Below are positions 8,770-62,811 of a stretch of DNA of 64,000 nt, in pieces. The position numbers and the translations under genes are program-made. How positions within the stretch are numbered: the first letter of the stretch is position 1; every line of letters begins with the position of its first letter. The notes under the pieces were generated by a model. It was not told where the DNA came from and ran no database searches. It was given only the letters and a program-made list of their open reading frames with translations. The DNA is from Nakazawaea peltata (lineage: Eukaryota; Ascomycota; Pichiomycetes; Alaninales; Pachysolenaceae): contig BCGQ01000001.1 of assembly GCA_001599355.1 (NCBI GenBank), positions 1,677,135 to 1,741,134 of the forward strand, read 5' to 3'.

Positions 8770-11343
8770 ATGGTATTCCCGTTGTTGCCTTACTACGGTT
8801 CATTAGAATCTGTGAGTGCTGAATCGTTAGCCAAGGTCTCTTTGGCCAACCAAATTTTAGTCAAATATACCGCCGGTGCTGCCTCAAAAGTAGCTCTGAT
8901 CATTGGAGAATTGGAGTTAGTTGGCAAGTTAAGTTTGGATATTGAAGATGAGAAGGTCCAGATTGATGAGATTGTTCAATTATTGAACTCTGGAGTTGCT
9001 CAACTTTTCGTTTCTACCGAATTTGCTGCTCAAATCATCGACTCGATCAAAGGATTATCCGAGTCGAGAATCGTTGTCAAGTTGGCTGGTCTGGCGGCTG
9101 CCGAGTCGGCTTCAAAGTCGGCTCCAAAATCTGCCATTTTACTCCCTTCATCCACTCCATTAGGTGATCTGAAACTGTTAGCCGAGTCCCGTCAAGTTTA
9201 CTCGTTCGTCCAAGACGTCTCAGCCTCAATCAACCTCTCTTCCCTCGTAGCTTCAGGTTTAATCCCAGTTGTCGACCTGACCAAGTTGACTAACGACCCT
9301 AAATCGGACTCAAACTCCATTGGAATCGCCCAACTCCTCACCTCCGCCTTGAAAACCGACCGTCCAGACAACTTGTACACCACTTTAGTCGTTGACAAGT
9401 ACAACCATTCTCTCGGGTTAGTTTACTCATCTGTTGAGTCGATCAGTGAGCTGATCAGAACCAAAACCGGGGTTTACCAATCCCGTCGTCATGGTTTATG
9501 GTACAAGGGAGCCACCTCCGGTGCTGTCCAGAAGTTATTGGCCATCGAACTCGACTGTGATGCCGATTGTTTGAAATTCGTAGTCGAACAGTCCGGTGTC
9601 GGTTTCTGTCACTTGGAACAAGACACTTGTTTCGGTAATTTACAAGGTTTGACCCAGTTGGAGAAGACATTACAAAGCAGAAAGCTGGATGCTCCTCTGG
9701 GAAGCTACACCAAACGTTTATTCGAGGATTCCAAGTTGTTGGACGCTAAGATTAGAGAAGAAGCTGATGAGTTGACTGAACTGAAGACTAAAGATGAGAT
9801 CAGTTGGGAAGCTGCTGATTTGATTTACTTTGCTTTGGCTAAATGTGTCAAGGAGGGTGTTAGTATCAGTGATATTGAGAGGAATTTGTATTTGAAGCAT
9901 CTTAAGGTTAGTAGAAGGGAGGGAAATGCTAAGAGTAAGTATGTGAAGGAAACTCCAGCCTCTGCTACTGCTCCTGCTCCTGCTACGGCTACCCCAGAAG
10001 CTGTCGCTGCCGCTCCAGCTTCTGATAAGATCGTCATGTCCCGTATCGACATCTCCACCTCCTCTTCCCTGTCCATCCAAAAAGCCCTCGAAAGACCAAT
10101 CCAAAAAACTGCCGATATCATGAAATTAGTTCTTCCTATCGTCAACTCGGTCAAAGAACGTGGGGACTCTGCCTTGATCGAATTGACCGAGAAATTCGAC
10201 AAAGTCAAGCTCGCCTCTCCAATCATGGAAGCCCCATTCCCTGAATCTCTGATGAATATCACCCCAGACGTAAAGAAAGCCATCGATATCTCGATCGAAA
10301 ACGTCCGTAAATTCCATGCTGCTCAACTCCAAGACCCAATGGATGTCGAGACTTGTCCTGGTGTCATCTGTTCGAGATTCTCAAGACCTATCGAGAACGT
10401 TGGTTTGTATATTCCAGGTGGAACTGCCGTCTTACCTTCTACAGCTTTAATGTTGGGTGTCCCAGCCCAAGTAGCCGGTTGTAAGAACATCATCTTTGCC
10501 TCACCTCCAGATAAATCCGGTAACTTGACCCCAGAAGTCGTCTACGTCGCTCATAAAGTTGGTGCCAAATGTATCGTCCTTGCCGGAGGTGCTCAAGCCG
10601 TCGCTGCTATGGCCTACGGTACCGAATCTGTTCCTAAATGTGATAAAATCTTAGGCCCAGGTAACCAGTTTGTCACTGCTGCTAAAATGCATGTCCAGAA
10701 TGACTCAACTGCCTTATGTTCGATCGATATGCCAGCCGGACCTTCCGAAGTCCTTGTCATTGCCGACTCTAAAGCCGATCCTGACTTTGTAGCCAGTGAT
10801 TTGTTATCCCAAGCCGAGCATGGAATCGATTCTCAAGTCATTTTGATCGCTGTCAACCTCTCCCCAGAAGAATTAGACGCAATCGATGAAGCCGTCAACA
10901 GACAAGCCTTACTGTTACCAAGAGTCGATATCGTTAGAAAGTGTATTGCTCACTCCACCACCTTGACCGTCTCATCTTATGAACAGCTGTTTGAATTCTC
11001 CAACAAATACGCTCCTGAACATTTGATCTTGCAAATTGAAAATGCCCAATCTTATGTCGATTTAGTCGACAATGCCGGTTCGGTCTTTGTCGGAGCTTAC
11101 TCTCCAGAGTCCTGTGGTGATTATTCATCGGGAACCAACCATACTTTACCAACTTACGGTTACGCTAGACAATATTCTGGTGTGAATACGGCCACATTCC
11201 AGAAATTCATCACTTCTCAGAACGTTACACCTGAAGGATTGAAACATATCGGTAAGGCCGTCATGGATTTGGCTGAAGTTGAGGGTTTGGATGCTCATAG
11301 GAATGCTGTTAAGGTTAGAATGGAGAAGTTGGGCTACATTTAG
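8770..11343 (+). CDS. HIS4: Trifunctional histidine biosynthesis enzyme His4
   Basis: An 857-residue fusion enzyme catalysing steps 2, 3, 9 and 10 of histidine synthesis. Phosphoribosyl-AMP cyclohydrolase is at about residues 205-290 (SRRHGLWYKGATSG, then Cys/Asp metal ligands in ELDCDADC). Phosphoribosyl-ATP pyrophosphohydrolase follows at about 295-375 (REEADEL). An Ala/Pro linker (about 395-415) precedes histidinol dehydrogenase to the C-terminus, with KILGPGNQFVTAAK, DMPAGPSEVLV, SQAEHG, NKYAPEHLI and SSGTNHTLPTYGYA, which include the zinc and substrate residues. S. cerevisiae His4 is 799 residues; the extra length is N-terminal and in the linker. CTG codon 740 falls at the Ala of the family's EEAxExSN motif. 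It follows BIK1 in tandem, as in S. cerevisiae, and carries Gcn4-type sites upstream. Confidence 0.97.
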   Translation: MVFPLLPYYGSLESVSAESLAKVSLANQILVKYTAGAASKVALIIGELELVGKLSLDIEDEKVQIDEIVQLLNSGVAQLFVSTEFAAQIIDSIKGLSESRIVVKLAGLAAAESASKSAPKSAILLPSSTPLGDLKLLAESRQVYSFVQDVSASINLSSLVASGLIPVVDLTKLTNDPKSDSNSIGIAQLLTSALKTDRPDNLYTTLVVDKYNHSLGLVYSSVESISELIRTKTGVYQSRRHGLWYKGATSGAVQKLLAIELDCDADCLKFVVEQSGVGFCHLEQDTCFGNLQGLTQLEKTLQSRKLDAPLGSYTKRLFEDSKLLDAKIREEADELTELKTKDEISWEAADLIYFALAKCVKEGVSISDIERNLYLKHLKVSRREGNAKSKYVKETPASATAPAPATATPEAVAAAPASDKIVMSRIDISTSSSLSIQKALERPIQKTADIMKLVLPIVNSVKERGDSALIELTEKFDKVKLASPIMEAPFPESLMNITPDVKKAIDISIENVRKFHAAQLQDPMDVETCPGVICSRFSRPIENVGLYIPGGTAVLPSTALMLGVPAQVAGCKNIIFASPPDKSGNLTPEVVYVAHKVGAKCIVLAGGAQAVAAMAYGTESVPKCDKILGPGNQFVTAAKMHVQNDSTALCSIDMPAGPSEVLVIADSKADPDFVASDLLSQAEHGIDSQVILIAVNLSPEELDAIDEAVNRQALLLPRVDIVRKCIAHSTTLTVSSYEQLFEFSNKYAPEHLILQIENAQSYVDLVDNAGSVFVGAYSPESCGDYSSGTNHTLPTYGYARQYSGVNTATFQKFITSQNVTPEGLKHIGKAVMDLAEVEGLDAHRNAVKVRMEKLGYI

Positions 11344-25561: not shown

Positions 25562-26392
25562 ATGAACTCGGTATTGGGATATAGTTCAGATAGTGATTCT
25601 GAGACAGAGAGTACACATGGTCTGGGCCTGCCCCTGGGTCTGCCCCTGGGTCTGCCTCTCGACTCTTTCTCTGCTCAGTCACTCTCCCCGACTCAATCAC
25701 TGACTAACTCCCAACCCACCTCATCTCGATCCAGATGTCTCGGAGCCGCCGTAAAAAACACTTTCAATGATACTAATAGAATCGGAGAATCAGGAATATC
25801 AATCAAATCCATCGCATCTATCACAGACTTGGTCCCTGCACTGTTGATGAAGAAGAAGGGAAAGAAATCGGCAACTGCTCCCACTGCAACTGCACCCACT
25901 TCATCTACTCCCACTGCTACTCCTATCCCAGACCCAGTCCCCCCAATCGACCTTCATCTCGGTGACATATTCAACTCATCTGCCACTCAAAAAAGACAAT
26001 CCCTCCCTTCTTTCAATACACTGGTCGTTCACGATGACTCAATGGACATCGAGCCTTCTCCTTCGGAAATTACCGACAAAATATCAAATGAGCCTACAAT
26101 ATCTGTACCCAACAGAAAGAAACGCAATCAAATTGATTCATCTAAAATCATCGATTTCGATATGAACAGCTTCTACAATGAGAATAGTGACCTCATCCTG
26201 AATGGAGAACTTGACTTCGATGAACATACAAGGCAGAATAAGAAGATCAAGTACTACAATCCTACGGGAACCAATCAATTAAGTGATTTGATTAGATTCA
26301 GTTCACAAAATACTGACAATCTTAAGGTGCGATATGATAAAGAGAAATCGATCAAGTCTCAGACTGCCCAAAAATACGGTTTCAAGAAGTGA
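25562..26392 (+). CDS. PRCC-like nuclear protein
   Basis: A 276-residue mostly disordered protein. The start is taken at ATG 25562, because upstream in-frame codons lack an ATG and MNSVLGYSSDSDSETES is the usual opening of this family. The conserved C-terminal part (about 200-276) has IIDFDMNSFYNEN and ends in SQTAQKYGFKK, resembling PRCC (mitotic checkpoint regulator, MAD2B-interacting), a protein associated with spliceosomes. Residues 22-34 are a five-codon-pair repeat rich in CTG (positions 25620-25664). It reads Gly-Leu-Pro with the standard code, but Gly-Ala-Pro with CUG as Ala, which suits a disordered acidic protein better. Family assignment rests on both termini and is moderate. Confidence 0.65.
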   Translation: MNSVLGYSSDSDSETESTHGLGLPLGLPLGLPLDSFSAQSLSPTQSLTNSQPTSSRSRCLGAAVKNTFNDTNRIGESGISIKSIASITDLVPALLMKKKGKKSATAPTATAPTSSTPTATPIPDPVPPIDLHLGDIFNSSATQKRQSLPSFNTLVVHDDSMDIEPSPSEITDKISNEPTISVPNRKKRNQIDSSKIIDFDMNSFYNENSDLILNGELDFDEHTRQNKKIKYYNPTGTNQLSDLIRFSSQNTDNLKVRYDKEKSIKSQTAQKYGFKK

Positions 26393-35190: not shown

Positions 35191-37041
35191 TCAGTGTTGG
35201 TATGCATTGATTGGAATGTTGGATTTAGAACCATTGAAACTAGTAATACATGTTTGATAGTCCCAGTTACTTTGTTGACATAACATTAAACTGAATTCGG
35301 CATTCAATTTTGTCTCCTCAAAGATTCTTCCTAACAATTGTTGCTGCACTGGGCTTAAAGCATTCAAAATATCTGGAGGAACTTGTTGTTGTAATAAAGT
35401 GATGGTATTAGCACTCAAAGGAGGGGTCGGGAGACCATTAGCAACAGGCAGCAGTGGAGATACCAGCAGAGGTACCGACAGTGGCAGCAGCAGTGGTACC
35501 AGAGGCAGTCCAGCACCGTTTTCAGTCCACGATTTAGCACCAGCATGAGCTCTAATTAATAACAAATCAGAAGCAATGATCATTGACAGATCTGGTCCTT
35601 GGACAATGACAAATGTTCTATCGAATGATTTCTTTGTAAGTTTCCCCTTGGCTGTAGAGTTGTGGTTGAATCTATTACGAGGTCCAGAATTAGTAGGTTG
35701 AACTTCCGGAATTGCTACCTCATCGAATTCTCCATGCACAATAACCACTATACCGTTGATTTGAGGGTAAGAATACGACTCGACGGAGAAAAGTTGAGGT
35801 GACTCGATAAGCATGTGTTTTGTTCTAGGTAACTGCTGGAAAACCTTGTAGATATCTTGAGCACCTTTATGTAATCTGGCCATTCTGGAACGTTCATTGG
35901 AGATCCTCGAAAGGTTTCTTGAGTTGGGAAGATAATATGACCATGCTTGTGCATCTTCCTCATGACTTATGGAAGGAGCCAGGGAATCGACTTGGACAGA
36001 AAATTGAGATTCTGGCGAAGAATACAATCCCATCAACTCTTGTCTATTAGAATCCCAAAGCTTGAGATAATTCGAGATGAAAGAGGTGGCTATATTATGA
36101 ATGTCTGGGGTCTCGAAGAACATCTGCTTGGTAGGAATTGGGAATTTGAAGATCTTCAGAAGTTTAACTTCATCTCTCAAGATCTGGCCATCGAGTAAGA
36201 TCAATTTTGGGAAGATTTTCATGATTTCAAATTGATAATTATTGGCTTGTTGGACTGGATTGTTGAGTAATACAAGTTCCCTCAAGTTGGTGAATTTACC
36301 TTTCCAAGTTTCAAAGAATTTGAGTCTCGATATACGATTAGAATCAAGTGATAAGTTCAATAAAGTTGGGAAAGTTGTTCCAATCAAAGACAAGCTGGTG
36401 AAAGTGTCATTTAACTGGTTGTTGGCCAAATTGACGGTCTCAACAATGATATTAGGGTCCTGAGACAGAAGTTTCATTAAAGCCATGAACATTTTAGACG
36501 ATGTGGCCGAGGTTGTAGAGCCGCCGATCAAACCTCTACTGACCAACAAGTGATCGTTTTGCATGTTGCTTAAGTCGAGCATTTTGAGCTGAGGATTATA
36601 TCTGGCGGTCAAGAACTGTTTCAAGGACTCGACAGTGGAAACGGCAGCTGAAGACATTGGAGAATTGTTTGTTCCAGCTCCAGCGCCAGGGGCTCCATTA
36701 TTGATTATATTAAATTTCAAAGATTGACCAGCAAATTTGACCCCATTCCAGTTCATCAAGGTGTCGGCGTCCTTCTGGGAACGGACGTAGCCTACTACGG
36801 CACCATTCATTTGGTTTACTGAGGTGTTTGATACGTTGATTCGTGTCTTTCTGGAGAGGAATGACACCAAATCTGAGGGCGTCGCGTTATTCCACCCCCA
36901 GATTTCAACTTGGACACCGCTGTTGGAAGATTGGCCGAAGGGGGCGGCAGGAGGCGCTCCAAATACATTGGGGGAGCCATTCCTGCTGTTATTCCCGTTA
37001 TTTTGGCCGTATCCGCCTCTACCTCTTCCACGGTAACTCAT
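35191..37041 (-). CDS. MEX67: mRNA export receptor Mex67
   Basis: A 616-residue orthologue of Mex67/NXF1, which with Mtr2 carries mRNPs through nuclear pores. An RGG-type start (SYRGRGRGGYG) is followed by an RRM-like domain (about residues 46-115), leucine-rich repeats (about 150-270: LKMLDLSNMQ, TVNLANNQL, LLNLSLDSNRISRL, LRELVLLNNPV), an NTF2-like domain (about 305-480, the Mtr2 partner, with LIESPQLFSV and VIVHGEFDEV), and a C-terminal UBA/TAP-C domain (about 555-616, EETKLN and QSNWDYQTCITSFNGS) for FG nucleoporins. The linker at about 500-535 is extremely rich in CTG; it would be an Ala/Pro/Val linker under CUG-Ala, and an unlikely Leu/Pro block under the standard code. S. cerevisiae Mex67 is 599 residues. 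Confidence 0.95.
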   Translation of the reverse strand: MSYRGRGRGGYGQNNGNNSRNGSPNVFGAPPAAPFGQSSNSGVQVEIWGWNNATPSDLVSFLSRKTRINVSNTSVNQMNGAVVGYVRSQKDADTLMNWNGVKFAGQSLKFNIINNGAPGAGAGTNNSPMSSAAVSTVESLKQFLTARYNPQLKMLDLSNMQNDHLLVSRGLIGGSTTSATSSKMFMALMKLLSQDPNIIVETVNLANNQLNDTFTSLSLIGTTFPTLLNLSLDSNRISRLKFFETWKGKFTNLRELVLLNNPVQQANNYQFEIMKIFPKLILLDGQILRDEVKLLKIFKFPIPTKQMFFETPDIHNIATSFISNYLKLWDSNRQELMGLYSSPESQFSVQVDSLAPSISHEEDAQAWSYYLPNSRNLSRISNERSRMARLHKGAQDIYKVFQQLPRTKHMLIESPQLFSVESYSYPQINGIVVIVHGEFDEVAIPEVQPTNSGPRNRFNHNSTAKGKLTKKSFDRTFVIVQGPDLSMIIASDLLLIRAHAGAKSWTENGAGLPLVPLLLPLSVPLLVSPLLPVANGLPTPPLSANTITLLQQQVPPDILNALSPVQQQLLGRIFEETKLNAEFSLMLCQQSNWDYQTCITSFNGSKSNIPINAYQH

Positions 37042-40477: not shown

Positions 40478-41992
40478 ATGAACCTGTCGCATCTCTCTCA
40501 ACTGGCTAAGATCCCAACCTCCCATACCCTTTGGTCCCCAGCTGACACCGTCAAAGATGTCGCCGAAAGTATCGGATTGAATAACCTCGGCGACGAGGTA
40601 GCTAAGAACTTAGCAATGGATGTCGAGTACAGAATCCATGAGATCCTCGAACAAGCCATCAAGTTCAAGAGACACTCCAAACGTAAGACCTTGACCACCC
40701 AAGATATCGACAAGCTGTTGAAAGTGTTGAATCTCGAACCTTTGTACGGGTACGATGTCCATCGTCCACTTGTATTCAAGGAAGCGATTGTTGGAGCCGG
40801 GTCCAATTTGTATTATATTGATGATGAGGAGGTGGAGTTTGAGAAGTTGATCAACCAGCCACTCCCAAAGATCCCAAGGTATGCCACATACACTCTGCAT
40901 TGGCTCTCTGTTGAAGGTGTCCAGCCGTCGATTCCTCAGAATCCTCTTGCGGCTGATATTCGTCAAATACCTCCGTTCTTGAGGGGGGCCATGACTAATA
41001 TGTTGACGTTGGAGTCGGAGTATCTGTCGGCTTCGTCGGATTCTCGGAATAAACAGCAACAACAGCAGTTATTTGGCTTGTCGGGAAGTGGATCTTCCGA
41101 GCAACAACTGCTGAAGAAAGATTTGGACGTCAAGCCTTTGGTCAAACATGTGTTATCGAAGGAGTTACAGTTGTACTTTGACCGTGTAATAGATGCCTTA
41201 GTTAAACCTAACCCTGAAGATGATGCTGAGATCGAGCATTTGAAGGCTGCGGCTTTGAATTCCATCAAATCGGACCCGGGTCTTCATCAGTTGATCCCAT
41301 ACTTTATCCAGTTCATTGCAGAGACAATTACTAATAATTTGAAGAATTTGCTGTTACTTTCGACAATGTTGGAGTTGATATACTCGTTATTGGCCAACCA
41401 GACCTTGTTTTTGGAGCCTTATATTCATGCTTTGATGCCTTGTATTTTGACTTTGTTGTTGGCTAAGAAAATCGGTAATAATGATCCTGCTGATAAACAA
41501 CATTTCGTCACTAGAGATTTCGCTTCTCATTTATTGGCCCATATCATTAAGAAGTATGGTACTTCTTACTCGACTTTGAAACCTAGAATTACCAGGACTT
41601 TATTGAGAGCTTTATTGGATCCTACTAAATCTACTGGTACTCAATATGGTGCTATCATTGGACTTAGATCGTTGGGTGAGGAAGTTATTCGTATTATTCT
41701 TGCTGGAAATTTGCTGACATGGTCTCAAACTTTCTTGGTCAAGAAGGTATGGGATGAAGAGGAGGAGAATGATAAGCAAATGTTGATCGATGCCATTATT
41801 GAGAGTCTTAGACTTTTGAAGGTGAAGAAACAGACTGAAGGGGAAGACCAAATGGATGTCGATGACAAGGAAATTAATGATGAGTTGAAGGAGAAGATTT
41901 CAAAGAGAATCGGTCAACAAGTTTCTGAAGCGATCTTTGTTCAAGAAGATGCTAAAGAGATTGTTGAAGGTGTTCTTTTCGGAGAGTTTTAA
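40478..41992 (+). CDS. TAF6: TFIID/SAGA subunit Taf6
   Basis: A 504-residue subunit shared by TFIID and SAGA. The N-terminal histone-fold domain (about residues 10-90) has SPADTVKDVAESIGL, EVAKNLAMDVEYRIHEI and LTTQDIDK, then LKVLNLEPLYGYD; it pairs with Taf9 as an H4-like/H3-like dimer. A Gln/Ser linker (about 188-215) leads to the C-terminal HEAT-repeat domain (about 225-455), with LRALLDPTKSTGTQYGAIIGLRSLG being the family signature. Codon 80 is CTG exactly where the family has an almost invariant Ala before L-K-V-L-N, a strong hint about the code. S. cerevisiae Taf6 is 516 residues. Confidence 0.96.
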   Translation: MNLSHLSQLAKIPTSHTLWSPADTVKDVAESIGLNNLGDEVAKNLAMDVEYRIHEILEQAIKFKRHSKRKTLTTQDIDKLLKVLNLEPLYGYDVHRPLVFKEAIVGAGSNLYYIDDEEVEFEKLINQPLPKIPRYATYTLHWLSVEGVQPSIPQNPLAADIRQIPPFLRGAMTNMLTLESEYLSASSDSRNKQQQQQLFGLSGSGSSEQQLLKKDLDVKPLVKHVLSKELQLYFDRVIDALVKPNPEDDAEIEHLKAAALNSIKSDPGLHQLIPYFIQFIAETITNNLKNLLLLSTMLELIYSLLANQTLFLEPYIHALMPCILTLLLAKKIGNNDPADKQHFVTRDFASHLLAHIIKKYGTSYSTLKPRITRTLLRALLDPTKSTGTQYGAIIGLRSLGEEVIRIILAGNLLTWSQTFLVKKVWDEEEENDKQMLIDAIIESLRLLKVKKQTEGEDQMDVDDKEINDELKEKISKRIGQQVSEAIFVQEDAKEIVEGVLFGEF

Positions 41993-53347: not shown

Positions 53348-56035
53348 ATGTCATATAATCGTTATAAAGGTGGTCATGGTGACCGTAGACCCTACTACGA
53401 CGATGAGCGTAGAGGTTTTCCCCCAAATAGGTCCAATTACCCCGCCAAACACAAGAATCAACCTCATCACAGAGACCAATCGAGTTCAGAGTATCTACAG
53501 AAGGATGTAAGTAGAGGCTCTGATAAGTCAAAGAGCACTGATATGAATGCTAATACTAATACTACGTCTGAAAGTAACGGGAAAAGTAGTTTGCAGCCAG
53601 AAAATACCAAGAAAGATGAGCTTAGTGCGGCTGAGAAGCTTCGATTAAGACAAGAGAAATTGGCCAAATGGAAACAGAAGCAAGCACCTGAGAAAGTGGG
53701 CACAACTGGGGCTGAAAATGGAACTCTGACCCCTTCACCAGGTGCTTCAACTCCTCCTCCGTCTATAGCCAAAAAGATATCCATTCAACCCATCCAAAAG
53801 AAACCTTTAATTGTCAAGTTGAAAAAACTGGTACCTTCAAAGAGGACGTTACAACTCTCGGTTCCCAAAGCTTCTCCATCGCTGTTTTCGGAGGATGATT
53901 CAGTCAATGGCATATCTTCTACTAAGAGACCAAAAATCTCTGCAAAAACCCCGGTTAATGACACAGAAGACAGTCTAGATCTGTTCTTCAATAATATTGA
54001 AAAATCTCAACCTGAAAGACCCCCAACAGAGTCACAAGAAGTACAAGAATTCATGGATCTTTTCCTGGACGAAGCTCAAGAAGACTCTAAAGGATCAGAT
54101 TCTGTCAAAGATCTTATGAAACAAGCCAAAAATATCAATGCATCCAAAGAGATTCCAGAGATTCCACCCTCATCAAGAGCAGTAATCAAGAAATTCTACG
54201 ACTCAAAGCTCAATCAATTCAAAGAAAAAGACTCCCAAGAGTTCATGATATCCAATGAGATCAGCATTAAACCTGAGAATGACGAGTTTTCAGCTGTAAG
54301 TTCCTTCAGTCAGCTTGGTTTGACTTCTAAAATGTTGGAAGTTCTTGAAGAACTCCAATTTACAGAGCCGACCCCCATCCAAAAGATCTCTTTACCCATC
54401 CTAATGTCAGGTCATGATGCTATTGCTGTTGCCAAAACAGGTTCCGGTAAGACATTACTGTTCATCCTCCCAATGATTCGTCATATAGTAGCCAATTTCT
54501 CTCTCACCAAACAATCCAAGTTAAGTCTGACTCCAATTGGATTGATTTTGACTCCAACCAGGGAACTTGCCTTACAAATCTTCAACGATTGTAAACCTTT
54601 CCTTAAAATCTTGAATTTACGTGGAGTTTGTTGCTATGGAGGATCCAATATCAGCTCCCAAATAGCAGACCTTAAAAAAGGTGCCGAACTTGTCATTTGT
54701 ACCCCCGGTAGATTAATAGATTTACTCACTGCCAACAATGGTAGGGTCACCAACTTATCAGAAGTGAGTTTCTTGATCTTAGATGAAGCTGACAGGATGT
54801 TTGATCTCGGATTCGAACCTCAAATAATGAAAATTATCAAAAATATCAGAAATGACCGTCAAACTTGTCTTTTCAGTGCAACTTTTGCTAAGAAAATCGA
54901 GTCTCTTGCTTCCAAAGTACTTTCAGATCCTGTCCAGATCGTCGTAGGTGGAGGTAGAAGTATTGTATCCGATACTATCACTCAAAGAGTGCTTGTAGTG
55001 AAGCCAGAGGAGAAGATATTTAAATTACTCAAGATTTTAGGGGATTTTGCCTCGGAAGAAACCGAGTTAGTCAACAAATTATTGATATTCTGTTCAACCA
55101 AAGACAGATGTGATAATTTGGTGACCCAATTAGTACAAAGAGGTCATAAATGTATTGCTCTTCATGGAGGGAAAGATCAAATTGACCGTGATAATGCCAT
55201 TAAAGATTTCCAGAATGGGAATATCCCCATCTTAGTCGCCACAAGTGTTGCTGCTAGAGGTTTAGATGTAAAGAATTTATCGATTGTAGTCAACTATGAT
55301 GCTCCAAACCATTTAGAAGATTATGTCCATCGTGTTGGTAGAACTGGTAGAGCAGGAAATACCGGAATAGCATACACTTTTGTAGAACCTAGTGAAGAAA
55401 GAGCAGCTAATGATATCTCCAAGCTGCTTAAAATGAGTAAAAACCTTGTTCCTAACGAAATTGAGCAATTGCTGAACCTGTTCCAAGACAAATTGAAGGA
55501 CGGGAAAGAGAAGTACACTTCTGGATTTGGGGGTAAAGGTTTAGAGAAGCTTGAAGAAACCAGAAACAAAGTGAAGAATCTGGAAAGAAGATCTCTGACC
55601 GGGGAATCGTATGAAGAGCCAACACCTGAACCATCCACTATTGATATTGACTCATCTACTGCTTTGGAAGATATGGAATCCATTGATTTCACTGTTCATG
55701 AGTCAAAAATACCTGGAAAATTGGACGCCCGTCTGTTCCATGCTAAAATTTATATTAACGATTTACCTCAAAAAGCCAGAGTTTTCCTTTCTCAACAATA
55801 TCCTTCTGTTTCTGAAGCCACTAACGTTTCAATTACAACGAAAGGTGTATTTGTTCAAGATTCAAAGAACTCCAAAGAGGATAAATTACATATTATTGTA
55901 GAAAGTGAAGATCGTATGGAGGTGGTGAATGCTGTTTCGATGCTTAGATCTGCAATGATCGAAGGATTACAAGGAAGTAATGAAGAAGAACTCCGGAAGA
56001 TGAGACAAGGTGGTGCAGGCCGTTATAAAGTGTAA
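53348..56035 (+). CDS. PRP5: DEAD-box splicing helicase Prp5
   Basis: An 895-residue ATPase that remodels U2 snRNP for branch-site recognition and prespliceosome assembly. The N-terminal 300 residues are low complexity with KDELSAAEKLRLRQEKLAKWKQK (about residues 88-110), a Prp5-family helix. The helicase core has the Q motif ELQFTEPTPIQ (about 337-347), Walker A AKTGSGKT (about 362-369), TPTREL (about 401), DEADRMFDLGFEPQ (about 478-491; DEADR is typical of Prp5), SAT (about 510), ARGLD (about 636) and HRVGRTGR (about 661). The C-terminus keeps FHAKIYINDLPQKAR and the KH-like end of the family (INDFPQ block). Codon 371 is CTG where the family has Ala or Ser. S. cerevisiae Prp5 is 849 residues. 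Confidence 0.94.
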   Translation: MSYNRYKGGHGDRRPYYDDERRGFPPNRSNYPAKHKNQPHHRDQSSSEYLQKDVSRGSDKSKSTDMNANTNTTSESNGKSSLQPENTKKDELSAAEKLRLRQEKLAKWKQKQAPEKVGTTGAENGTLTPSPGASTPPPSIAKKISIQPIQKKPLIVKLKKLVPSKRTLQLSVPKASPSLFSEDDSVNGISSTKRPKISAKTPVNDTEDSLDLFFNNIEKSQPERPPTESQEVQEFMDLFLDEAQEDSKGSDSVKDLMKQAKNINASKEIPEIPPSSRAVIKKFYDSKLNQFKEKDSQEFMISNEISIKPENDEFSAVSSFSQLGLTSKMLEVLEELQFTEPTPIQKISLPILMSGHDAIAVAKTGSGKTLLFILPMIRHIVANFSLTKQSKLSLTPIGLILTPTRELALQIFNDCKPFLKILNLRGVCCYGGSNISSQIADLKKGAELVICTPGRLIDLLTANNGRVTNLSEVSFLILDEADRMFDLGFEPQIMKIIKNIRNDRQTCLFSATFAKKIESLASKVLSDPVQIVVGGGRSIVSDTITQRVLVVKPEEKIFKLLKILGDFASEETELVNKLLIFCSTKDRCDNLVTQLVQRGHKCIALHGGKDQIDRDNAIKDFQNGNIPILVATSVAARGLDVKNLSIVVNYDAPNHLEDYVHRVGRTGRAGNTGIAYTFVEPSEERAANDISKLLKMSKNLVPNEIEQLLNLFQDKLKDGKEKYTSGFGGKGLEKLEETRNKVKNLERRSLTGESYEEPTPEPSTIDIDSSTALEDMESIDFTVHESKIPGKLDARLFHAKIYINDLPQKARVFLSQQYPSVSEATNVSITTKGVFVQDSKNSKEDKLHIIVESEDRMEVVNAVSMLRSAMIEGLQGSNEEELRKMRQGGAGRYKV

Positions 56036-56450: not shown

Positions 56451-57131
56451 TTATTGGGATGGTCTGTGAGAATTATTAAATTGATGACTCTTCTTCGGTT
56501 TCTCATCCTCTCTTGGGACAATATCAATCAAGAAATCAAACATATCAGACTTCTGCAACAGCAGAGCAATATCTGATCTTTGTAATGTTCTTCTTTTGTT
56601 TTCTTCCAGATGAATCCACAGTCTCATAGTCAACTCAGTAATGAAAATATCACAACCTTTGGCAAATAAAATTGGAGCTTCAGCACTAATCATACGTACT
56701 TCTTCATCAGTTTTCATCACCTTCTTTATACGAGCCAATGGTAATTGATGATTCTTAAAGTCGTGTTCGTCATGTTCAATAGAATTGATCGTCTCTTGCC
56801 AATATTGCATCATCATATTCTTATAAGTGTCACTCAAACCTTGCCCAACATTAGCAAAAGCACCACCTTCACCAAACTCATCTTCCTCTTCCTCCTCTTC
56901 TTCATCCTGTCCATCTTCCATACCCATTTCACCATCATCCAGCTCAGGTATTATCCCCATATCATGTGTAGGATCTCTTTGTACATCATTAAGCGATAAA
57001 TCATCATTCATAATATCATCATTAGGAACGCCAGCAGCGCCCAGTTGCAGCAGCAGATTATACATCTGACCATTGTCAGTCAAATACGATTGCAGCGCGT
57101 ATCCGCCGCCATAAGGCACCTCTCCGTTCAT
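56451..57131 (-). CDS. HAP5: CCAAT-binding complex subunit Hap5 (NF-YC)
   Basis: A 226-residue histone-fold protein. An N-terminal Ala/Gln/Asp-rich region and an acidic Glu run (about residues 74-85) precede the conserved core (about 105-210): MMMQYWQETINSIEHDEHDFKNHQLPLARIKKVMK, ISAEAPILFAKGCDIFITELTMR, then ENKRRTLQRSDIA and KSDMFDFLIDIVPRE. It pairs with Hap3, binds Hap2 and recognises CCAAT to activate respiratory genes. Codon 175 (before EENKRRTLQ) and codons 190-191 (after DIA) are CTG. Fungal NF-YC proteins have A, and A-A or E-A, at these places, so this gene gives some of the best evidence for CUG as Ala. Divergent from SNX3, as in S. cerevisiae. Confidence 0.96.
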   Translation of the reverse strand: MNGEVPYGGGYALQSYLTDNGQMYNLLLQLGAAGVPNDDIMNDDLSLNDVQRDPTHDMGIIPELDDGEMGMEDGQDEEEEEEEDEFGEGGAFANVGQGLSDTYKNMMMQYWQETINSIEHDEHDFKNHQLPLARIKKVMKTDEEVRMISAEAPILFAKGCDIFITELTMRLWIHLEENKRRTLQRSDIALLLQKSDMFDFLIDIVPREDEKPKKSHQFNNSHRPSQ

Positions 57132-59640: not shown

Positions 59641-60687
59641 ATGTCGATTCCACAAACTCAAAAGGCCGTCGTCTTCGAAACCAACGGTGGTCCATTAATT
59701 TACAAGGACATTCCAGTTCCAAAGCCTAAGGCTAATGAATTGTTGATCAATGTCAAGTACTCGGGTGTATGTCACACCGATTTACACGCCTGGAAGGGTG
59801 ATTGGCCATTGGCTACCAAATTGCCTTTGGTCGGTGGTCACGAAGGTGCCGGTGTCGTTGTAGGCATGGGTGAGGCTGTTAAAGGTTGGAAGATTGGTGA
59901 TTACGCCGGTATCAAATGGTTGAACGGTTCTTGTTTGAACTGTGAGTACTGTGAGAAGGGTAACGAATCCAACTGTGCCGATGCTGACTTATCTGGTTAC
60001 CTTCACGATGGTTCTTTCCAACAATATGCTACTGCTGATGCCATTCAAGCTGCTAGAATTCCAGCTGGTACCGATTTGGCTGAGGTTGCTCCAATCTTAT
60101 GTGCCGGTGTTACCGTCTACAAGGCTTTGAAGACCGCCGACTTGGCTGCCGGTGAATGGGTTGCCGTTTCTGGTGCTGGTGGTGGATTAGGTACTTTAGC
60201 CATCCAATACGCCAAGGCTATGGGTTACAGAGTCCTTGCCATTGATGGTGGTGCTGACAAGGGTGTCTTGTGTAAGGATTTGGGAGCCGAAGCTTACATT
60301 GACTTCACACAAACTAAGGACATGGCCCTGGAGGTCATTGAGATCACTAAGGGTGGTGCTCATGGTGTCATCAACGTCTCTGTCTCTGAGAAGGCTATTG
60401 AGACTTCTTGTGATTACGTCAGAAACAACGGTAGCGTTGTTCTTGTCGGATTACCAGCCGGAGCTGTCTGCAAATCATCTGTTTTCAACCAAGTTGTTAA
60501 GTCTTACTCCATCAAGGGTTCTTATGTCGGTAACAGAGCTGATACTTCTGAAGCCATTGACTTCTTTGTCAGAGGCCTTGCCAAGGCTCCAATTAAGGTT
60601 GTCGGTTTGTCCGAGTTACCAAGTGTTTATGAATTGATGGAGAAGGGGGCTATCTTAGGTAGATACGTCTTGGATACTAGTAAATAA
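59641..60687 (+). CDS. ADH1: Alcohol dehydrogenase (cytosolic, Adh1-type)
   Basis: A 348-residue zinc alcohol dehydrogenase converting acetaldehyde and NADH to ethanol, and the reverse. Catalytic-zinc ligands are the Cys in [16 protein letters not shown] (about residue 44), the His in GGHEGAG (about 67) and the Cys in [12 protein letters not shown] (about 153). Structural-zinc cysteines lie in [15 protein letters not shown] (about 98-112). The NAD fold is [20 protein letters not shown] followed by an Asp-containing strand end (AIDGG). [16 protein letters not shown] and [15 protein letters not shown] are the yeast ADH signatures. There is no mitochondrial presequence, so it is cytosolic. Codon choice is strongly biased (TTG, GGT, GCC/GCT), a mark of high expression; its single CTG (codon 230) is at a position with Ala/Gly in yeast ADHs. 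Confidence 0.94.
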
Positions 60688-61101: not shown

Positions 61102-62811
61102 ATGACAGTTCTGGGGACCATGATGCTCGAGTACATAGTACTTGGAGACAAGTTGTCCAACCAGGGGACTAAGATCGAGGCTGCTTTGAAGAAGATCTAT
61201 GAGGTTGAGGAGGTGGAGTGGTTGAGATACCATGCCTCGGATCCGAAACTGTTGATCACTTACTTGACGTTAAAGAACAGATACCCAAATACTACTGATT
61301 ACGATCAGATAAATAAGGAGGAGGTTGAGTTGAACCATCCCATTTTACTTTTTGCATCTAGGACAAATTTACCTGGCAACAAACTGGTCGACAAGGACCA
61401 GAAGGTGTTGAATGATATGAGTTTTGATGATATCGATTTTGTATTGAATGACCATTTCCACCATCTCAATGTTATATATATCGATTATGATCAGGTGGAT
61501 TTTAATGCTATTACTAATACATTAAGATCTCGTTCACAAGTGATGAAGCACCGTCCAATGCGTGTATTATCGTGGATTGGATACGATGAAAACACATCTA
61601 TAAAGTCACTGGGATTGAGATCTATGAATGATGATTTGAAAATTGAATATGACACTGCTGACCGTCGTCTGATGGCTGATATGCTTGTGCGAGACATTGA
61701 TTATTTCTCATTATTGAAATTGAACCATGAGCATTCTTATTATCGCAAGATGGTATATGATTGGGGATTCCAAGCTCATAAGCTCACTTATGATGAGTTG
61801 TTGTTCTGTGCTAAGACCATTTGGGATATTCTGATCATGGAAGTCCAGGAGAAAGAGAAATTACTCGTCGATGATCAGAATAGACTGCTCCTGTTCATGT
61901 TCAATGTTCGAGACAACTATAGAATGGGTAACGAATTCCATAATTTCCGTCATGCTGTCGATGTGTTACAAGCAACATTCTACCTTTTAGTGAGGTTAAA
62001 GTGTTTGCCTGAAGAGGGTGCTAGTTCGGAAGCTACTGACTCCGAAACCATCACCGATATGATCACTAAGAAATTGTTATCCCCACTGGTACTGATGACT
62101 CTTTTAGTTCTGTCGTTAGGACATGATATTGGACATCCCGGATTAACAAATAAATTCCTCGTAGATCACAAAACACCTATCCTGCTCCAATTTGAAGGCA
62201 AGAGTGTATTGGAAAGTTTCCATTTCAGTGAGTTTAGAAGTATCTTGGATAAGTTCTATCCTCCTCTCTTTGAAGTGTATGCAGACTACTTGGCATTGAT
62301 ACAGAAATCGATCTTATCGACCGATATGACGAACCATTTCAGTTATATCGATAAGATTGATATCTTTATGGATTCAGAACTGCATATCTTACAACAACCG
62401 AACGATGAACCTTTCGAAGATGAGATTAAGAATCATACTCGTCTATTATTATGTTCATTGATCATCAAGTGTGCTGATATTTCGAATGTTTCAAGACCGT
62501 TGGAAGTGAGTGCCAAATGGGGTGTTTCATTGACTAATGAAACTAACGAGATTGTTACTCTTGAGAAGAATTTGAAGGATCCTCAAGGTGATGTGATTCA
62601 AGAATTTGATCATTGTCTTCGGGAGCTTGGAAATATCAAACCGGAAGAGGTGATCAAAGCTTTACCAAGTATTTGTAATGGGCAATGTTTCTTTATTGAG
62701 AACTTTGTCATGCAATACTTTGATAAGGTGCAAGTGATCTTGCCTAAGTTGAGTTTTTTGTATGAACAGATTACGGATAATCTTGGGTATTGGAAGAGTC
62801 AAAGCAAATAG
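61102..62811 (+). CDS. PDE2: High-affinity cAMP phosphodiesterase Pde2
   Basis: A 569-residue class I (HD-domain) phosphodiesterase hydrolysing cAMP and so damping Ras/PKA signalling. The catalytic domain spans about residues 210-560. NEFHNFRHAVDVLQATFYLL (about 276-295) holds the first metal His, LGHDIGHPGLTNKF (about 339-352) the HD metal pair, GKSVLESFHFSEF (about 367-379) the next block, and IIKCADISNVSRPLEVSAKWG (about 454-474) the last metal Asp. CTG codons 337 (three residues before HD) and 361 (in the P-x-A-x-L/Y block) fall on family alanines. S. cerevisiae Pde2 is 526 residues. PDE2 lies near HAP5 and SNX3 in S. cerevisiae also. Confidence 0.95.
   Translation: MTVLGTMMLEYIVLGDKLSNQGTKIEAALKKIYEVEEVEWLRYHASDPKLLITYLTLKNRYPNTTDYDQINKEEVELNHPILLFASRTNLPGNKLVDKDQKVLNDMSFDDIDFVLNDHFHHLNVIYIDYDQVDFNAITNTLRSRSQVMKHRPMRVLSWIGYDENTSIKSLGLRSMNDDLKIEYDTADRRLMADMLVRDIDYFSLLKLNHEHSYYRKMVYDWGFQAHKLTYDELLFCAKTIWDILIMEVQEKEKLLVDDQNRLLLFMFNVRDNYRMGNEFHNFRHAVDVLQATFYLLVRLKCLPEEGASSEATDSETITDMITKKLLSPLVLMTLLVLSLGHDIGHPGLTNKFLVDHKTPILLQFEGKSVLESFHFSEFRSILDKFYPPLFEVYADYLALIQKSILSTDMTNHFSYIDKIDIFMDSELHILQQPNDEPFEDEIKNHTRLLLCSLIIKCADISNVSRPLEVSAKWGVSLTNETNEIVTLEKNLKDPQGDVIQEFDHCLRELGNIKPEEVIKALPSICNGQCFFIENFVMQYFDKVQVILPKLSFLYEQITDNLGYWKSQSK

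Follow-up and report, generated by a model that had tools for sequence, protein, structure and literature searches.

Conserved columns and an alanine-type tRNA(CAG) gene indicate that CUG is read as alanine in a yeast genome grouping with Pachysolen

Genes and CTG codons of the window

The HAP5 (NF-YC/HapE) gene lies on the reverse strand of the stretch of 64,000 nucleotides analysed here (the window), which spans positions 1677135-1741134 of contig C1 in a genome of 11,631,020 bases and 11 contigs. The window has a GC content of 41% and carries 29 ORFs, one of which runs off its edge. Together these ORFs contain 245 CTG codons (16.2 per 1000 codons), next to 372 TTA, 632 TTG, 254 CTT, 168 CTC and 35 CTA. 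Gene names were taken from Pfam for ten proteins and from PDB matches for HIS4, HAP5 and PRP5; the remaining names are presumptive. The features discussed are collected in Table 1.

An earlier note on this DNA had observed CTG at columns normally occupied by alanine and had proposed a CUG-Ala yeast. The observation is confirmed and the interpretation is supported by the analyses described below. All CTG codons named there are present, at HAP5 175 and 190-191, TAF6 80, PDE2 337 and 361, PRP5 371, HIS4 740 and ADH 230.

When HAP5 was searched with CTG translated as X, the top PDB matches were fungal HapE chains. Its conserved domain holds four CTG codons, all of which stand opposite alanine in fungal HapE, while the six N-terminal CTG codons fall outside the aligned region. 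Five chains were printed out of 17 matches: the three from HapE have A at all of codons 171, 175, 190 and 191, and the two from plants have S at codon 171 and A at the other three. The alanine sites proposed at 175 and 190-191 are thus borne out in every printed chain, and codon 171 is an additional conserved-domain CTG that had escaped the note. The Histone match of HAP5 likewise favours alanine, with 67.8 bits for Ala, 61.2 for Ser and 55.9 for Leu.

Comparable agreement is seen at most of the other named sites. TAF6 codon 80 is indeed a near-invariant alanine column, and HIS4 codon 740, expected to be A or C, meets exactly these residues in the printed HisD chains. For PRP5 codon 371, where A or S had been expected, the PDB alignments give A in both DDX46-type chains and in DDX42, and S in yeast Prp5 and Dbp2. 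The expectation of alanine at both PDE2 sites holds for codon 337, but codon 361 fits either serine or alanine. At ADH codon 230 the CTG is present, and the two residues score practically alike. The other leucine codons, CTT, CTC, CTA, TTA and TTG, each infer L in the pipeline applied below to TAF6, REV3 and PDE2.

Two CTG-dense low-complexity stretches are also present as described, namely the MEX67 linker (35191-37041, reverse strand) and a Gly/Pro repeat in the forward-strand ORF 25562-26392. Read with alanine, they would become Ala/Pro and Gly/Ala/Pro sequence, respectively.

Table 1. Location of the genes, CTG codons and tRNA genes discussed. Positions are those of the window unless a contig is given.
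Feature	Position	Strand	Basis or content
HAP5 (NF-YC/HapE) ORF, 10 CTG codons	56451..57131	-	translation, PF00808 + PF00125, PDB HapE match
HAP5 codon 171 CTG, Ala (HapE) or Ser (plants)	56619..56621	-	PDB alignment
HAP5 codon 175 CTG, alanine column	56607..56609	-	A in 5 printed chains
HAP5 codons 190-191 CTG CTG, Ala-Ala pair	56559..56564	-	AA in 5 printed chains
TAF6 ORF, 9 CTG codons	40478..41992	+	118 homologues aligned
TAF6 codon 80 CTG, alanine column	40715..40717	+	A 114/118
TAF6 codon 140 CTG, alanine column	40895..40897	+	A 116/118
REV3 (DNA polymerase zeta) ORF, 28 CTG codons	13030..17859	+	118 homologues aligned; tree
PDE2 ORF, 13 CTG codons	61102..62811	+	119 homologues aligned
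PDE2 codon 262 CTG, leucine column (evidence against)	61885..61887	+	L 100/119
PDE2 codon 337 CTG, alanine column	62110..62112	+	A 97/119
PDE2 codon 361 CTG, Ser/Ala column	62182..62184	+	S 75, A 36 of 119
HIS4 codon 740 CTG	10987..10989	+	A, C, C in three HisD chains
PRP5 codon 371 CTG, Ala/Ser column	54458..54460	+	PDB chains
ADH codon 230 CTG, Ala vs Ser inseparable	60328..60330	+	ADH_zinc_N 100.7 (Ala) vs 100.9 (Ser) bits
CTG-rich Gly/Pro repeat, codons 21-31 of ORF 25562-26392	25622..25654	+	translation
CCT5 (L089), 30 CTG codons	C7:381943-383436
CCT1 (L087), 19 CTG codons	C1:465225-466751
tRNA(CAG)	C4:81426-81498 (ARAGORN end 81499); L062:126-198		ARAGORN, Rfam tRNA model
tRNA-Leu(UAG), sixteenth class II gene, 120-base intron	C4:804518-804725 (L098 c68-275)	-	D-arm search

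Alanine, serine and leucine at CTG columns

TAF6, REV3 and PDE2, with CTG written as X, were aligned with 118, 118 and 119 of the 120 homologues listed for each. The underlying searches were run with CTG as Ala for TAF6 and as X for REV3 and PDE2, and five rows of the closest relatives were excluded owing to doubt about their code or translation. In this profile test, each of 22 other codons scored best with its standard amino acid. Over the 40 of 50 CTG codons that could be scored, the sums were -3.9 bits for S, -14.1 for A and -70.1 for L; in the 28 more conserved columns, alanine takes the lead (-9.5 versus -12.0 for S). In 13 of the 40 columns a single residue reaches at least 60%, which is A in four, V and S in two each, and K, D, E, M and L in one each. 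Many of the CTG codons sit in D, E, K, V or M columns, which counts against alanine, and PDE2 codon 262 is the clearest single site against it. The residues of the relatives at the window's CTG sites give no clear signal, and the translation of their own CTG codons is uncertain: alanine occurs at 3/8 (TAF6) and 1/26 (REV3) sites in Pachysolen, and at 2/9, 2/27, 1/25 and 4/11 sites in relatives P0001, P0125, P0127 and P0245. Taken as a whole, the three proteins exclude leucine and leave alanine and serine inseparable.

These columns are where both competing single-residue readings find part of their support. If CUG were serine, as in the CUG-Ser1 or CUG-Ser2 clades, the lead of S over A in the 40 columns would be expected. 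If CUG kept its standard meaning and the alanine columns were coincidental, PDE2 codon 262 would be an ordinary leucine, and four of the 13 well-conserved columns (V, V, M and L) would be accounted for.

Pfam family scores offer a second comparison, in which the same proteins were translated with Ala, Ser or Leu at CTG and the scores were summed. For the ten window proteins and 24 families, the totals were 3126.9 bits (Ala), 3111.2 (Ser) and 3052.9 (Leu), so that alanine exceeds serine by 15.7 bits and leucine by 74.0 bits. By family, Ala is better than Ser in ten, worse in nine and tied in five; against Leu it is better in 18, worse in four and tied in two. Eight of the 32 matches obtained with the Ala table had been dropped as weaker or overlapping, namely Histone on HAP5, Histone, TFIID-31kDa and CBFD on TAF6, and ResIII, ADH_zinc_N_2, LRR_9 and LRR_4; the ResIII match leans to Leu (Ala 19.9, Ser 19.5, Leu 21.0). 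The CTG signal of the window exceeds chance, and the margin of alanine over serine within the window is modest.

The decisive margin between alanine and serine comes from elsewhere in the genome. Nine chaperonin genes outside the window, with 86 CTG codons, score 4413.4 bits with Ala, 4352.6 with Ser and 4292.9 with Leu; one further match, covering a short part of a longer gene, was not included. Alanine is preferred over serine by 60.8 bits and in all nine proteins, and over leucine by 120.5 bits and in seven of nine. CCT5 and CCT1 were chosen for alignment with PDB chains because they have the most CTG codons among the nine, and the other seven were tested by Pfam score alone. Opposite the 49 CTG sites of these two genes, the S. 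cerevisiae chains (4v81_E, 4v81_A) carry A 37 times, S three times and L never, the remaining residues being K and C (two each) and E, Q, T, N and V (one each). Conserved CTG columns that are mostly leucine or serine are thus not what is seen here. Human chains show A at 21/30 sites in CCT5 and 13/19 in CCT1 (one gap), and L at none of the 48 aligned sites. Summed over these 49 residues in yeast, BLOSUM62 scores come to 145 for A, 47 for S and -57 for L. In the same yeast alignments, GCN codons face A in 39 of 53 cases and the other leucine codons face L in 98 of 117; therefore, with 37 of 49 against 39 of 53, CTG acts like a GCN codon.

In the chaperonin and HAP5 columns, alanine beats both leucine and serine. 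The chaperonin columns refute leucine as the standing meaning of CUG, and the probability left to it is negligible. Leu outscores Ala in four window families and two chaperonins; against it stand the overall Pfam deficits and the complete lack of leucine at the aligned yeast and human sites.

tRNA genes that could read CUG

One tRNA gene with a CAG anticodon was found. ARAGORN labels it 'Leu' purely from the anticodon, and the Rfam tRNA model aligns with it over its full length at 50.9 bits under permissive filters; it was missed with the fast Rfam filters, and bare folding gave no cloverleaf (z 0.15). The gene has a five-base variable loop and the pairs G1-C72, G2-C71, G3:U70 and C4-G69, a U6.U67 mismatch and A73. 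Three of these elements, G3:U70, U6.U67 and A73, are common to the tRNA-Ala(AGC) and tRNA-Ala(UGC) of the genome, and among 13 tRNA types sampled from it G3:U70 occurs only in the CAG type and the two Ala types. G3:U70 is the main recognition signal of alanyl-tRNA synthetase (AlaRS). According to PMC5951914, AlaRS requires no particular anticodon bases. Because G3:U70 and A73 are present and the enzyme ignores the anticodon, AlaRS would be expected to charge this class I tRNA with alanine, and ribosomes would then insert alanine wherever it reads CUG.

The identity of this tRNA had been singled out as a point to check, and the outcome has two sides. The alanine elements G3:U70 and A73 are there, but the molecule also carries A35, G37 and A73, which PMC8629427 describes as yeast leucine identity, while the two Ala tRNAs of the genome have A37. 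Compared part by part, the gene is nearest to Ala-AGC in the acceptor (11/15), the variable loop (5/5, with Met equal) and the T-arm (14/17, with Glu equal). Its D-arm is nearest to Val (16/18) and Gln (15/17), and its anticodon stem to Val, Glu and His (7/10 each). Overall identity points to no clear parent, with 52/75 to Val-TAC and 49/74 to Ala-AGC in a partial set of the genome's tRNAs (without, for instance, Val-CAC and Val-AAC). Judged by its sequence, tRNA(CAG) is a patchwork of an Ala-like acceptor end, a Val/Gln-like D-arm and anticodon stem, and Leu determinants. Krassowski et al. (PMC5951914) derive the CAG tRNA of the CUG-Ala clade from tRNA-Ala.

Other candidate readers of CUG were sought among class II tRNAs, the structural class of leucine and serine acceptors. 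A class II pattern that restricts the gap, and so misses long introns, returned 15 genes; the class II D-arm alone returned 16, with none in controls. By their loops, these are Leu CAA (5), TAA (2), AAG (1) and UAG (1), and Ser AGA (3), TGA (1), CGA (1) and GCT (2). No TCAG was found at the anticodon after any of the 16 D-arms at any intron length, where a gene with a deviant D-arm could escape, and accordingly neither a tRNA-Leu(CAG) nor a tRNA-Ser(CAG) of class II was found among them. BLAST of tRNA(CAG) against the genome gave only the self-match. Two class I CAG patterns recovered tRNA(CAG), one giving 128 matches (control 115), part of them listed, and the other 44 (control 17). Among the remaining matches, of which not all were folded, Lys, Leu(AAG) and Leu(UAG) tRNA genes were recognised; none of these has CAG as its anticodon. 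Within BLAST, the class II D-arms and the class I matches listed (not all folded), no second CAG tRNA was recognised. As a separate observation, C2:142651-143050 (L075) contains tandem Lys-type tRNA genes with short introns, at least two and probably three.

A tRNA(CAG) lacking the long arm and bearing G3:U70, together with the CAG-free set of class II genes, is difficult to reconcile with serine decoding, as is serine at just three of the 49 yeast CCT columns. Ser does score above Ala in nine window families. Between the tRNA gene and the chaperonin columns, the serine reading is largely refuted, and we consider it very improbable.

The sixteenth class II gene is a tRNA-Leu(UAG) interrupted by a 120-base intron, whereas the introns of the plausible tRNAs reported by ARAGORN measure 10-34 bases. 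The intron folds into a strong hairpin of -37.9 kcal/mol; 200 shuffled sequences average -18.8 (z -6.33), and none of them folds as well. Rfam matches to plant microRNA precursors at this intron lie far under the gathering scores and are likely hairpin look-alikes. This tRNA might wobble onto CUG, as its counterpart does in Saccharomyces (PMC5951914), and to that extent its presence is in keeping with a leucine reading; the dedicated alanine-type tRNA(CAG) stands against it. For some yeasts of the Leu1 clade, the same source describes structured introns of 134-318 bases in tRNA-Leu(CAG), with slower maturation of the tRNA as their suggested effect. By analogy, the 120-base intron may limit tRNA-Leu(UAG) as a competitor for CUG. 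In a literature search on tRNA introns of the subphylum, nothing listed dealt with this gene. Through this structured intron, the clade connects with the proposal that leucine tRNAs reading CUN codons were under unusual selection in budding yeasts.

A mixed outcome could also be envisaged, in which CUG yields alanine for the most part and leucine in a small, possibly regulated fraction, the leucine arising from leucine charging of tRNA(CAG) or from wobble by tRNA-Leu(UAG). The combination of A35, G37 and A73 would suit such charging, G37 being associated with about 3% leucine charging in C. albicans (PMC5951914), and a few CTG codons do fall at hydrophobic columns. However, the only codons one step away from a new CTG encode L, M, V, P, Q or R, and the hydrophobic and Q/R columns are therefore explicable without leucine decoding. 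Moreover, the absence of a long variable arm in tRNA(CAG) and the possible restraint on tRNA-Leu(UAG) by its intron speak against a leucine fraction, and for P. tannophilus PMC8645108 gives more than 99% alanine and rejects an earlier figure of 10% leucine. We regard a minor leucine component as distinctly unlikely.

Codon usage, phylogenetic position and relation to known codes

Protein matches place the genome close to Pachysolen. TAF6 is 75% identical to a protein labelled lgn (a label taken as Logan) and 66% to that of Pachysolen tannophilus; for REV3 the values are 53% to the former and 55% to Pachysolen, in a match that covers 60% of the query, and the best PDE2 match is 49% identical. 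None of the matches listed for these three proteins is nearly identical. Trees were built from 19 TAF6 and 20 REV3 sequences, hand-selected from the 120 listed for each and comprising neither Nakazawaea nor Peterozyma. The window groups with the lgn-labelled relative and Pachysolen with ultrafast bootstrap values of 99 (TAF6) and 100 (REV3), and not with the Ser clades, a further point against serine; some deep branches of the REV3 tree are doubtful, with Wickerhamomyces adjoining filamentous fungi. NCBI taxonomy lists Nakazawaea and Peterozyma in the Pachysolenaceae, order Alaninales.

The chaperonin and HAP5 columns, the Pfam sums, the Ala-type tRNA(CAG) and the place beside Pachysolen all point the same way, and CUG is almost certainly alanine in this nuclear genome (NCBI table 26, the CUG-Ala code). 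The CUG-Ala clade seems to gain another member with this genome, as the earlier note had inferred. The code itself is already known from close relatives and is a rare nuclear code change.

Read as alanine, CTG accounts for 22.6% of CTG plus GCN codons in 28 window ORFs and 20.0% in the nine chaperonins, and is the third most used alanine codon of the window. Its share is uneven (chi-square 82.2 on 27 df for the window ORFs, 79.2 on 8 df for the chaperonins), ranging from 2% in ADH to 59% in CCT5; CCT1 has 37%, and the other six CCT genes and Hsp60 have 6-22%. Two genes presumed by family to be eEF1A (L096, L097) have no CTG against 33 GCN codons each, and a gene presumed on the same grounds to be mitochondrial EF-G-like has 18 CTG against 29 GCN codons. 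The eEF1A genes fit an avoidance of CTG in highly expressed genes, given a single tRNA gene. Avoidance by expression does not fit the differences among the CCT genes, whose products are required in equal numbers. GC3 is unlikely as a cause of the uneven use (correlation -0.21, 37 genes).

In the genes examined, CTG is freely used at alanines common to yeast and human. PMC5951914 describes CUG in code-changed clades as fairly rare and as located mainly at sites of poor conservation or alignment, and PMC8084343 gives a mean CUG frequency of 0.003-0.006 in three GAL genes of code-changed species. Five CUG-Ala genomes were excluded from one codon-usage survey, according to PMC6701816. A tentative reading, which we hold to be possible but rather doubtful as a whole, is that CUG is here a mainstream alanine codon and not a rare relic, served by one patchwork tRNA and with tRNA-Leu(UAG) held back by its hairpin intron. 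Because the leucine tRNA would be held back by this 120-base intron, the reassignment might then be guarded from both sides.

Nuclear sense-codon reassignments are very rare, and standard-code translation would give a wrong sequence for most proteins of this genome. The many CUG codons at conserved alanines provide many sites for peptide tests. A change from GCN to CUG requires two base changes (GC to CT), and a CUG-Ala genome with many CUGs allows one to ask how alanine sites made this crossing.

Among known systems, the closest likeness is to the CUG-Ala code of Pachysolen, Nakazawaea and Peterozyma (table 26), with CUG at alanine columns, a CAG tRNA of alanine identity, no tRNA-Leu(CAG) found, and grouping with Pachysolen. 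It differs from the code-changed clades as portrayed in PMC5951914 in that CUG reaches 16.2 per 1000 codons in the window, makes up 20-23% of alanine codons in the genes examined and stands at conserved alanines. The CUG-Ser1 code (Candida albicans clade) reassigns the same codon and shares G37 beside the CAG anticodon, but there a tRNA-Ser reads CUG, and here a class I tRNA with G3:U70. The CUG-Ser2 code (Ascoidea/Saccharomycopsis) again concerns the same codon, with both Ser and Leu tRNA(CAG) in most species, whereas one CAG tRNA is recognised here. Finally, the expanded, structured tRNA-Leu(CAG) introns of some Leu1-clade yeasts (PMC5951914) likewise lie in a CUN-reading leucine tRNA; in the present case the long hairpin intron interrupts tRNA-Leu(UAG), in a genome that belongs with the CUG-Ala clade.
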